Assembly (NCBI GenBank): GCA_008933995.1
Contig: WARS01000015.1
Coordinates: 12,736,957-12,800,956, forward strand
From: Datnioides undecimradiatus
Taxonomy: Eukaryota; Chordata; Actinopteri; Lobotiformes; Datnioididae
Length of the DNA: 64,000 nt
Direction: 5' to 3'
Each line of letters begins with the position of its first letter. Positions within the stretch are counted from its first letter, which is position 1. Below are positions 346-64,000 of the stretch, piece after piece. A program made the position numbers and the translations under genes. Below the pieces are notes generated by a model. That model was given only the letters and a program-made list of their open reading frames with translations. It did no database searches and was not told the DNA's origin.

Positions 346-25465
<25,120 letters not shown>

Positions 25466-58793: not shown

Positions 58794-58905
58794 ATGACTT
58801 CGACTTTGCTATCACCGATGGTGGATTATTACAATGATGAAGAAGAACTCGACAGCGTGGACGACGACGATGATCGAAGTTTCAGGGGAAGAGACTCGGA
58901 AGAAG
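58794..58905 (+). CDS. suds3: suds3 exon 1 (residues 1-38), acidic N-terminus
   Basis: 112 coding nt from ATG 58794; donor GAAGAAG|GTAACG. It encodes [20 protein letters not shown] then [18 protein letters not shown] second in-frame ATG lies at codon 9; both have C at -3. The first was chosen because it gives the longer frame, but the choice is not certain. Confidence 0.9.
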
Positions 58906-61900
58906 GTAACGTTAAACGAACTAACCAAAAGATTCGGCTCAGACTAATTGTTGGAAAAGAGACGGAAGCGCGCGATTATTGGAAAAAATAAACTGTTTTG
59001 ATTGCAGTTTTTACAATGAGCTACATTTTAGTCTCGGGTGTAATAATTTTCCCTGAACAGTGCAGTGTGCGCTTTTTTAGGACTTCCTTAGTCTAAATAT
59101 AACTACTTCATCCCAGTGCTGGAAAGCTCTTCAGAGCTTCAGCCGCACATAGTTAGCTTGCTTGCTAGCTAAAAGCAAGCTACAAAACCGACTACCACCA
59201 GGCTAGTTTCTGCCCAGCCAGGTAACATTTCAGAAGCAAGCGATATATAATAGCTAATCAGTTACACAGAGTGGATGTTTCCCGTGCTGATGGCGAGTTG
59301 AGCCCACGTTTAACGATTTCGTTACCAATAATGTCGTCTTTGTTTACTGCTAACTAGATAGCGTTTCTTTGCTCAAGTTGCGCGTGAGACATCAATCAGC
59401 TTTAACTTTATTACTGGTCGGACGGCTCCTACGCAATAAACAGTTTCTGACAGAAAGTAAATGCAACTCAAGATACGCCAACTTTAGACACGTTTCAGTC
59501 CACCTGGACTTAAGCAGTTTAAATGAATGATATTCCTATTGGGGCAGTTAGCGACAATTAGCAAGCTAGCTACGTTACGTTAGCTTCGAGCACTGACAGG
59601 TCGGCAGGCAGGCGAAACCCTGCGTGCTGTGTCCACTGCACTGCCCTTTTCACACTGTTCAGTGAGACGGGACGGGTTGCAGTGAAAGAGAAGGAAAGAC
59701 AAGGGGAAAGCAAGGCGATGACAGCACTACAAGGTTAGCTAGTTTCCTGACAATGACTTCCGAGCGAAGAGCTGGACTTATCTTTTTTCTTCTCCGGATG
59801 TGTTGACGGTTCTGTTATGCCCAACTACGTGAGCTGGAATCGGGTTACTCTTTTAACAGTAGACAAGCTAACTTAAGCTAGCACATAAATGCTAACCGAA
59901 AATGAAAGCTGCTGTGTCAGCTCAACACGACCGGGCCTTACTTGTCTCTTGTGTCGGGGTCTGAAGCTAACGTAGACAGACCAAGGTCCGCTACTGCTTG
60001 TAAACTTGCCTCCCAAGTTTGCCACATCGCACTAGCCGTAACATGTTAGCTTTGTCCTGCCGTTGGACTGACAGCACCACCAAGTTAGCCGAGGACCGTT
60101 TCTGATTATTCCTACCATGCGGCAAATGCTTGACACTCAAAGTAACAGCTACATTTCAGTCGGTCGTTACATTAATCTTAATGGATAAAAAAACAAGCCT
60201 TATATGCATTTAGCTGAACTTTTCTTCTGATGTAGATCCGAGAATGTAATGTGTATTGTCTGATCGGACAGGCTTGGACTTTCCCTGGTTTCCTAATCTA
60301 ACGAATCGGAGGGCATTCCCAAGTAGGGTGTTCACCATTACCTTTCAAGTGCCACGCACGTCCTTTGATCTGCAGAGATCTCAGCTGTCTGTCTCTCTGT
60401 TGTTGGACACGACTTGATTGCATCAAGTTGTTGCTGGAAGAGCTGAAAAAAATGCATCCACGGATATTTCGTGGTGCAGCATGCTGAAATGAAAGAGTGC
60501 GTTTTCAAACAAACAGTTTTGAATGTTGGTTGAGAAATAGTTATGACATTGGAGTCTATTCTTCTCCTGTCATGCCCTTTTTCCAGACACGGAAGATGCC
60601 AGTGAGACGGATCTTGCCAAGCACGACGAGGATGACTATGTGGAAATCAAAGAGCAGTAAGTGTTTTGCCAACTGTGGCTCAGCTGTTTTGACCTTTTGA
60701 GAAAACATCGTTTGAAGGTGAAAGTTTTGAATGTTTGAATGTTGTCCTCATGCTGCACAGGACAAAAGAAAATGTCATACTGGTTTATTTCATTGCAGAA
60801 TGTACCAAGACAAACTGGCCTCCTTGAAAAGACAGTTGCAGCAATTACAAGAAGGTAATTGCAATTTTTTTTCTTACAACTGATCTGTGTCAACATTTTT
60901 TGCTAAATCTGAAACACTGTTGTTCTTTATTCAGTGGGATGTGATTTGTGTGAGTGTGTATGTACAGGATACAGCCAGATCTTGACTGGTTACTCATGCT
61001 GGTGGTTAGGGATTACATCATCAGGCCATGAAGGCAGCTTCGTAAGGAAGTTTAAATGTGCACTCACTGTCTACGGCTAAAAATGGTAACCAGCTGAGAA
61101 ATGGGCAAGAACTGTTGACAGACTGTGTTTTGCCATTATTATCAAGTCTGTTTGCTATTTATCGATACATACAACATTTTCTGAACAGCTGACTGCTCTG
61201 CAACATCACTGGCTGTCCCATGAGCTCTTTTTTTGCTCAGACTGATTTGAGTGGTATGATTGTAGAGTGACATGCTGTGAGCTCCTCGTGAATACAAAAC
61301 ATGCAATGTCAGCGTAATCAAGCCTAGACTGGGTAGGTGTCTGGGAGATGAGATTCGCAGATCTGCCTGTTAGTTGTCTAGAAATATCAGTGTATTCTAA
61401 TGAAATAATTTATATTGGAAAATTAAGAATTGATTTGTTCTCAGCCACACAAACATCTAAGTTCTTAGAGATTGATTGATTAACGAATAAGATTGTTCGT
61501 TAATCGTTTTAGTAAAACACACTCTTGTCTTTGCAGGTACACTGCAGGAGTATCAGAAGAGGATGAAGAAGCTGGACCAGCAGTACAAAGAGAGACTCCG
61601 AAATGCAGGCAAGTTGAGGAGTAAATTGAGACAGAGCACACTGAGGTTTGTTAGTAATGCATCCTCACCAGCCATGTTGTGAGCAGAGTATTACAATTTT
61701 GGAGTGCTTTCTGCTGGGAAAAGGAGAACCTGCCCACATGCAAGGGTTTCTGCATATAAGAAGAGACGTGTTGGCCATGGAAGTGTTGTATCCAAAGCCT
61801 TGGGGTTGATGGGTAGCCACAAAATTGTCTGCCGGCAATGGCAATCTAGACGAAAGGCTGTATGTAGAATAAATACCCATTTCTCAGTTTTTTATGCGGT

Positions 61901-63752
61901 ATGAACATCTGAAATGATAAATTATGATGAAGCTTGTGAGCAGTGCATGTTGTGCAGACGAATGAATGAATTAACCAGAAATTTGGTAAACTGTTATAAG
62001 CATTTCCACAGCTGCAGCAATAAAATTCCTTACACAGTGTAGTAACTTGTTTTAGGATTTCACATGTTCTGAATGATTGTAGTCAAGCGCATTAAAACCT
62101 TTAGAACCTGAAAATGTTGTTTGTTGTGTATTAACTAGCATGTTTTCCTTCTTCTTTACAGATCTGTTTCTCCAGCTTGAAGTGAGTATGGTTCATCATG
62201 ATAATGGACTGATGTAGTTCATACCCAATTGACCTTTTTTTGGTATTTGAAAAACACTCCCCCTTTTTGATTTCTATCTCTCTACCTTCTGCAGACTGAG
62301 CAGGTGGAGAGGAACTACATTAAGGAGAAGAAGGCAGCGGTGAAGGAGTTTGACGATAAAAAAGTTGAACTGAAGGAAAACCTAATTGCAGAACTGGAGG
62401 AAAAGAAAAAGATGATCGAAAACGAAAAATTAACAATGGAGCTGACAGGCGGTAAGGGAGCGAGGGCTGGATTATTAATCAGGGATGTGCTCAGCAGAAG
62501 AGACAGGAATTGGGTAAAAAAAAAAAGGAATTGTGGCTGGAGTGAGAGTTTTATCCTTACAAACTTTAATATTAAGCTGTCTGACTAAAGTAGGAGCGTC
62601 AGATACCATCATAAATTGTAAAATTCTGTGCTGGATTTCTTTTTAAATGAATCACAAAGGATTTGTGTTGTTTGACAAAACCTTTAACACTATTAAGATA
62701 TTATTGTTGGATGTCAATTTAGCATTATTTCTTTCATACACAGACTCAATGGAGGTGAAACCTATCATGACTCGGAAGTTGAGGAGACGGCCCAATGATC
62801 CAGTCCCAATACCTGACAAACGAAGAAAACCTGCACCAGATATCCTTCACATAAATGTGCATTCTCTGATCGATTAGCTGTCGATTTATTGATTTTCATG
62901 AATCTGTGAGTGGTACATTATGCTAAGTTCTACAATTTTACAATGTCGTTTGGCATTTGACGCGTTTATCCAAAGCGAAGTACATGTAGAATAAGTACAA
63001 CACAAGCAAGACATGTTTTGAGTCTAAGAGATAGCTGGTGTCGACAGGTAGTGCACGACGTTGGTTGTTATTTTTCCCTCGATAGTGCATTATCAGATCG
63101 GCAGGCATTCTGAAAACATTAGGGTCTTCAGTAGGAACTCTGTTGATTAAGTGAATATTGATAACAGGGAAAGAGTCCATGATGCTCATGATGTGCCTAA
63201 AATGTCTCCCTTAACTCTTCAAACCTCAGCTAAATTATTTGCTAACAGATGAACAGATAATGGAAGATCTAAGAACACTTAATAAGGTGAGCGTTTCAGT
63301 TGTTCTTGATATTATGCACCTTTTTGAAATTCACTTTGTCTAATTTGTTTAAAAAAAAAATAATTACACCTTCTCTTTTACAGCTCAAGTCACCAAAACG
63401 GCCGGGTACGTCAGTGCTCTGCGTTAGCAGTTCAATTCCACTTGTCACCTTTTGTTTTTTGTACAAATTAAACCAAGAGTAACATGTTAATTAGGGAGCT
63501 GGTAGGCAGATGGTGTTGCATGTTTCCAGTCTTAATGCTAAGCTAAGGTAACTGTCGGCTGGTTGTAATTTATTATTGAGCTGACAGATAGACAGCCGTA
63601 CCAATGATCAGTGGCGATAACTAATCAGGTGTTGCTTCCTCTCCAGTGTCTCCCTCATCTCCAGAGCACGTCCCCTCTGCTCCCATGGAGAGCCCATCCC
63701 AGCGTTACGAGGCCCGCATTGAGGAGGGAAAACTTTACTACGACAAAAGATG
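58794..63752 (+). CDS. suds3: Sds3 corepressor subunit (suds3), 5' part; 10 coding exons
   Basis: Nuclear subunit of the SIN3-HDAC1/2 corepressor. Its coiled coil dimerises and its central segment docks on the SIN3 HDAC-interaction domain, supporting deacetylase activity. The joined exons give 257 complete codons plus two bases. The order is: an acidic N-terminus ([13 protein letters not shown]), [14 protein letters not shown], a long charged coiled coil (about 62-165: [20 protein letters not shown].., [20 protein letters not shown]..), the basic [35 protein letters not shown], then SPSSPEH and [12 protein letters not shown]. The near-identity with mammalian SUDS3 leaves no doubt. Human SUDS3 is about 328 aa, so roughly 65 residues lie past the right edge. 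The N-terminus is shorter than in mammals, lacking the Ala/Pro-rich start. The introns are unusual (AT-AC, GC-AG). Confidence 0.96.
58906..60586 (+). other. suds3 intron 1, CpG-rich in part
   Basis: Between about 59.2 and 60.1 kb CpG is clearly more frequent than elsewhere, with gttagc/gctaac repeats and a 10 bp hairpin at 59154-59182 (TAGCTTGCTT..AAGCAAGCTA). It may be the 3' part of the suds3 CpG island or an alternative promoter. No exon seen. Confidence 0.55.
60587..60656 (+). CDS. suds3: suds3 exon 2 (residues 38-61)
   Basis: 70 nt. Acceptor CCCTTTTTCCAG; donor GAGCA|GTAAGTG. It encodes [22 protein letters not shown], matching human [20 protein letters not shown] at 18 of 20. Confidence 0.95.
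60799..60854 (+). CDS. suds3: suds3 exon 3 (residues 61-80), coiled coil
   Basis: 56 nt. Acceptor TTCATTGCAG; donor GAAG|GTAATT. It encodes [18 protein letters not shown]. Confidence 0.95.
60855..61536 (+). other. suds3 intron 3
   Basis: No recognised feature. Confidence 0.8.
61537..61608 (+). CDS. suds3: suds3 exon 4 (residues 80-104), GC donor
   Basis: 72 nt. Acceptor GTCTTTGCAG. It ends GCAG|GCAAGT: a GC 5' splice site, since no GT nearby keeps frame. It encodes [23 protein letters not shown]. Confidence 0.93.
61609..62161 (+). other. suds3 GC-AG intron 4
   Basis: Begins GCAAGT and ends CTTCTTTACAG, 553 nt. A GC donor needs strong pairing to U1 at other positions, and AG|GCAAGT provides it. 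Confidence 0.9.
62162..62181 (+). CDS. suds3: suds3 exon 5 (residues 104-110), 20 nt microexon
   Basis: Twenty bases between CTTTACAG and GTGAGT. With the preceding G it encodes D-LFLQLE, corresponding to human ELFLQLE. The conserved protein segment requires this exon. Confidence 0.93.
62295..62451 (+). CDS. suds3: suds3 exon 6 (residues 111-163), coiled coil
   Basis: 157 nt. Acceptor CCTTCTGCAG; donor GGCG|GTAAGG. It encodes [20 protein letters not shown], then [20 protein letters not shown] and [11 protein letters not shown], nearly identical to mammals. Confidence 0.96.
62744..62839 (+). CDS. suds3: suds3 exon 7 (residues 163-195), basic segment
   Basis: 96 nt. Acceptor CATACACAG. It ends CCAG|ATATCCTTC, a U12-type AT-AC donor. 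It encodes [31 protein letters not shown]. Confidence 0.94.
62840..63224 (+). other. suds3 U12-type AT-AC intron 7
   Basis: 385 nt starting ATATCCTTC (consensus ATATCCTTT) and ending AC after the branch motif TCCCTTAAC (63207-63215; consensus TTCCTTAAC), with the branch A about 10 nt from the splice site. Only this AT-AC pair restores the conserved protein. It should be removed by the minor spliceosome. Confidence 0.9.
62945..63135 (+). repeat. Teleost interspersed repeat inside the AT-AC intron
   Basis: ttggcatttgacgcgtttat then ccaaagcgaagtaca matches the very common fish repeat motif ggcagacgcttttatccaaagcgacttaca. The boundaries are approximate. Confidence 0.5.
63225..63286 (+). CDS. suds3: suds3 exon 8 (residues 195-215)
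   Basis: 62 nt. It starts after an AC 3' splice site (TTCAAAC|CTCAGC); donor AAG|GTGAGC. With the preceding G the join reads [24 protein letters not shown], as in human SUDS3. Confidence 0.93.
63384..63405 (+). CDS. suds3: suds3 exon 9 (residues 216-223), 22 nt microexon
   Basis: 22 nt between TCTTTTACAG and GTACGT. It encodes LKSPKRP plus the first base of the next codon, as in the human protein. Confidence 0.93.
63515..63605 (-). repeat. Teleost interspersed repeat, copy 4
   Basis: gtttccagtcttaatgctaa then gctaaggtaactgtcggctgg, followed by ctgacagatagacagccgta, matches the minus-strand form of the repeat at 56545-56750. It lies about 40 bases upstream of suds3 exon 10. Confidence 0.6.
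63647..63752 (+). CDS. suds3: suds3 exon 10 (residues 223-258)
   Basis: 106 nt. Acceptor TTCCTCTCCAG; donor AGATG|GTGAATT. It encodes [34 protein letters not shown] and two bases of Trp258. This is the last suds3 exon in the window. Confidence 0.94.
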
Positions 63753-64000
63753 GTGAATTTATTTTATTTTATTTAAGCATCTCCGTGTCTCATTGTTTTC
63801 CCCTTTCATTGTATCTATTCCCACATAGCTTAGCTACAGCCTACGTCTCCACTAGATGGCCCCATTGCCATGGGTTGGATGGCTTCAGTGTTTGGTTGGT
63901 CTTCAAAAGACATTTTATAACCACTCTGATGGCAGCTTTTTTTATGTACAGAAAGAGATATATCTAAGGAGCCCCTGAATAAGTGCTGGTGCTTGAAACC
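63753..64000 (+). other. suds3 intron, continues off window
   Basis: Donor GTGAATT and 240 further bases. No exon seen. Confidence 0.85.

Follow-up and report, generated by a model that had tools for sequence, protein, structure and literature searches.

A predicted U12-type AT-AC intron in suds3 of Datnioides undecimradiatus and its relation to human SUDS3 intron 7

The suds3 gene in a contig of Datnioides undecimradiatus has an intron that begins with AT and ends with AC. Here, we ask whether this intron, the seventh counted from the exon with the start codon, is of the U12 type, which is removed by the minor spliceosome, or whether its termini are better explained in another way. The window, which is the whole stretch of DNA that was analysed, has 64,000 nucleotides (contig WARS01000015.1, positions 12,736,957 to 12,800,956 of the forward strand), and all coordinates below are counted from its first letter. 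The evidence of sequence, coding frame, solved peptide and published human intron makes it very probable that intron 7 of this vertebrate suds3 gene is U12-type, of the AT-AC subtype, and the orthologue of minor intron 7 of human SUDS3.

The suds3 gene and its surroundings

The gene lies on the plus strand. Its first ten coding exons are inside the window, starting from the ATG at 58794, and the gene runs beyond position 64000. The exon model is composed of the following segments:

58794..58905, plus strand: coding exon 1, with the ATG at 58794 (exon model)
60587..60656, plus strand: exon 2 (exon model)
60799..60854, plus strand: exon 3 (exon model)
61537..61608, plus strand: exon 4 (exon model), inside the stretch aligned to PDB 4zqa_A
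62162..62181, plus strand: exon 5 (exon model and solved-chain match)
62295..62451, plus strand: exon 6 (exon model and solved-chain match; the joined protein matches Pfam Sds3)
62744..62839, plus strand: exon 7, which ends with KPAP and the first base of an Ala codon
63225..63286, plus strand: exon 8, aligned to PDB 2n2h_A along with the beginning of exon 9 (24 of 25 residues identical)
63384..63405, plus strand: exon 9 (exon model)
63647..63752, plus strand: exon 10 (exon model); the gene extends past the window

When joined, the ten exons keep the frame open throughout and give a product of 257 residues that has no internal stop. The joined protein matched the Pfam family Sds3 (PF08598) with an E-value of 5.1e-18; of four single suds3 stretches, one reached Sds3 slightly under the Pfam cut-off and the remaining three matched nothing. 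In a search of solved chains, the suds3 protein aligned to two SDS3 chains, PDB 4zqa_A (E 6.5e-42) and PDB 2n2h_A (E 3.1e-08), with 79 of 84 and 24 of 25 aligned residues identical, respectively, as counted by hand from the printed alignments. A weak third match was the yeast-type sds3 chain 8i03_G (E 0.0093). The presence of the Sds3 domain, together with the identity to solved SDS3, identifies the gene as SUDS3/Sds3.

Seven of the nine suds3 introns in the window have GT-AG termini, intron 4 has GC-AG, and AT-AC is found only in intron 7. Intron 4, located at 61609-62161, has a strong major-type GC donor, CAG/GCAAGT (the slash marks the exon-intron border), with one mismatch in nine positions.

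Other features can be noticed elsewhere in the window. Three frames on the minus strand, opposite to suds3, resemble TAO kinase exons (8131-8430, 17109-17333 and 18113-18481). The last of these, the only one of the three that was scanned, matched Pfam Pkinase with an E-value of 2.9e-08. To judge from human synteny, these frames probably belong to taok3. Close to the kinase exons, on the plus strand and thus opposite to them, there is a Tc1-like transposase ORF of 306 residues (19310-20230; HTH_Tnp_Tc3_2, E 4e-11). A scan of the whole window against Rfam at gathering thresholds gave no matches.

Signals and reading frame at intron 7

Intron 7 and its predicted splicing signals are as follows:

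62840..63224, plus strand: suds3 intron 7, AT-AC, predicted U12-type, 385 nt, phase 1
62840..62848, plus strand: predicted U12-type 5' splice site ATATCCTTC, matching RTATCCTT at 8 of 8 positions
63207..63215, plus strand: predicted U12-type branch point sequence TCCCTTAAC, with one mismatch to TTCCTTRAY
63223..63224, plus strand: AC 3' splice site, from sequence and coding frame

Exon 7 ends at 62839 with the letters CCTGCACCAG, and exon 8 starts at 63225 with CTCAGCTAAAT. The borders of the intron read CAG/ATATCCTTC at the donor and TCCCTTAACTCTTCAAAC/CTC at the 3' end, where the intron terminates in TTCAAAC, with its last base at 63224. The features that define U12-type introns are the 5' splice site and the branch sequence, and the optimal distance from branch to 3' splice site is 11-13 nt (review, PMC3584512). 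The original description of the AT-AC class gives ATATCCTT, TCCTTAAC and an AC acceptor (PMC2831892). The donor of intron 7 (62840-62847) matches RTATCCTT at all eight positions, while the other eight introns mismatch it at 2-5 of 8. Intron 7 differs from the U2 donor consensus at four of nine positions, the other eight introns at one to three. The branch motif TCCCTTAAC agrees with TTCCTTRAY at 8 of 9 positions, and no other site in intron 7 comes this close to the consensus; in each of the other eight introns, the best site 8-20 nt from the intron end has 2-5 mismatches of 9. Counted from the end of the intron, the two A residues of TCCCTTAAC are at distances of 11 and 10 nt, and the branch A would be 63213 or 63214. 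The resulting distance of 10-11 nt is slightly short compared with the optimum. The lack of a distinct polypyrimidine tract, as a feature of U12-type introns, gives no help here, since intron 7, with 15 pyrimidines in the 20 positions before its 3' splice site, is inside the range of the other eight introns (12-17).

Neither the donor motif alone nor the branch motif alone is rarer than chance. Counting both strands of the window, RTATCCTTY is present once, as the intron 7 donor, and shuffled sequences contain 2.09. For the branch motif with up to one mismatch allowed, the count is 52 and the expectation 73.17. Because motif rarity by itself is uninformative, the argument rests on the position of the motifs at a coding boundary. 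In a single first-order simulation of 4 million bases, ATATCCTT had a per-position frequency of 1.6e-5, and 0.64% of 100,000 simulated AC dinucleotides had a branch motif, with one mismatch allowed, 8-20 nt upstream. The joint chance of donor and branch is about 1e-7, a product that assumes independence. The only other RTATCCTT in the window is ATATCCTT on the minus strand at 9312-9319 (first base 9319), with one frame open across it; no coding exon ending at this site was recognised when the site and its flanks were read.

The coding frame is decisive for the choice of splice sites. We enumerated GT-AG, GC-AG, AT-AC, AT-AG and GT-AC pairs with donors at 62760-62999 and acceptors up to 63285 that were at least 60 nt apart. 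The frame was left open by 79 of these pairs, of which a single one, AT-AC 62840/63224, kept the reference peptide. The AT-AC subtype is recognised by these termini together with a restored coding frame, and intron 7 shows both. The AC acceptor at 63223-63224 is pinned by the solved Sds3 peptide (PDB 2n2h_A), because the A-Q-L-N-Y that follows the exon 7/8 junction is also present there. The residue that precedes this segment is Ala in 2n2h_A and Pro in the window, and the start of the solved chain is too near for K-P-A-P to be seen in it. Given the human protein, the K-P-A-P at the end of exon 7 is presumably conserved. If intron 7 is kept, translation meets a stop after 206 residues.

A U12-type AT-AC intron at 62840..63224, with the coding frame selecting the AC at 63223-63224, had been proposed in a sequence-only reading of the same DNA. 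These coordinates were recovered exactly, and the choice of acceptor agrees with the enumeration. The same reading held that the AG five bases further on drops a residue and soon meets a stop. When joined to donor 62840, the AG at 63228-63229 gives PAPAKLFANR followed by a stop; the early stop is thus confirmed, while no residue is simply dropped, as the frame shifts instead.

Alternative explanations and the predicted splicing pathway

Intron 7 could be an AT-AC intron that is nevertheless excised by the major spliceosome, since U2-type AT-AC introns are known, for example in sodium channel genes (PMC2831892). In Table 2 of PMC7367187, 11 of the 13 vertebrate rows put their share of U2-type introns at 0.01-0.03%. 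However, the sodium channel introns have G at position +5 (PMC2831892), where intron 7 has C. The full match to the U12 donor and the presence of a U12 branch motif also argue against this explanation, as does the human intron, which is classed as minor and remains unspliced without ZRSR2 or CENATAC (PMC8280824). We consider excision by the major spliceosome highly improbable.

The true splice could also be a GT-AG pair nested at 62857-63229, which leaves the frame open and would give an altered in-frame peptide with four extra residues net. However, its donor, AAT/GTGCAT, has three mismatches in nine positions and lacks G at both -1 and +5, and its use would pass over a full U12 donor located 17 nt upstream. 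Moreover, the six residues DILHIN would take the place of A-Q, which is present in the solved Sds3 peptide, and we regard this pair as an exceedingly improbable normal splice. In addition to normal minor splicing, the major spliceosome might fall back on the same pair if the minor pathway fails, so that DILHIN in place of A-Q, at the edge of the Sin3-binding segment, would tune corepressor assembly; this is very unlikely. That a sequence error at 62840 masks a GT donor, GTATCCTTC, is hardly credible: one base change would indeed create a U12 GT donor, but the acceptor that keeps the frame is the AC at 63223-63224, GT-AC combinations are disfavoured (PMC3584512), and intron 7 would remain U12-type even with such an error.

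If intron 7 is U12-type, as preferred here, established knowledge of minor splicing predicts that U11, and then U6atac, would pair with ATATCCTT, and that U12 would pair with the branch motif CCCTTAAC. The minor spliceosome would then join 62839 to 63225 and so complete the Ala codon with which the Sin3-binding segment begins. We take the segment after the exon 7/8 junction to be the one that binds Sin3. Because the minor intron is placed directly before this segment, a failure of splicing would remove it: with intron 7 kept and a stop after 206 residues, either the message would be degraded or a protein without the Sin3-binding segment would be made.

Comparison with known minor introns

The minor intron of human SUDS3 has been described previously. 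In RT-PCR after loss of ZRSR2, intron 7 was taken as minor and intron 5 as major (PMC8280824). In CENATAC patient cells and in depleted cells, the SUDS3 minor intron was impaired while adjacent major introns were unaffected, and human intron 7 was retained upon loss of ZRSR2 or CENATAC (PMC8280824). Furthermore, a lariat assay represents the U12 type by SUDS3 'introns 7-8' and the U2 type by '9-10' (PMC11039992), and the SUDS3 minor intron serves in assays of CENATAC, ZRSR2 and RBM41 (PMC8280824, PMC11039992). Since human SUDS3 intron 7 is already a published minor intron, with its dependence on the minor spliceosome, the observation in the window is correct and is not new. In the zebrafish Zrsr2 paper, 'suds3' is absent from the main text. 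The intron in the window is a clean non-mammalian example of a known minor intron in the gene of a chromatin corepressor subunit, and it could help to link defects of the minor spliceosome to the function of HDAC complexes.

Retention of human intron 7 after CENATAC loss suggests AT-AN termini, but 24% of G-type introns are likewise affected by CENATAC loss (PMC8280824). Minor introns are reported to be conserved as to host gene, position and subtype (PMC8280824); switches of subtype between orthologues are also on record, with both subtypes found in 36 U12DB clusters (PMC2831892). The share of AT-AC among U12-type introns is 26% in human, 22% in zebrafish and 12% in each of two pufferfishes, and it is 8-26% over 13 vertebrate rows (PMC7367187, Table 2). 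The subtype is thus uncommon yet ordinary among U12-type introns, and the earlier statement that AT-AC introns are a small minority holds as to minority, not as to rarity.

AT-AC U12-type introns in general have in common a ATATCCTT donor, a TCCTTAAC-like branch and an AC end (PMC2831892, PMC7367187). Compared with these, the branch in the window carries C instead of T as the second base of TTCCTTRAY, and the intron is otherwise typical. BRMS1L is presumably a relative of SUDS3. It is listed among genes with minor introns, and the position of its minor intron is not given in the available text of that source (PMC3728624). Human SUDS3 intron 7 comes from another vertebrate, and its termini are unstated in the available text of PMC8280824 and PMC11039992. 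It shares with the window intron the same gene, the U12 type and the same number counted from the ATG exon, a match that presumes that exon numbering starts at the ATG exon in both genes. The human introns called major, 5 and 9, correspond in the window to introns 5 and 9, which are both GT-AG.
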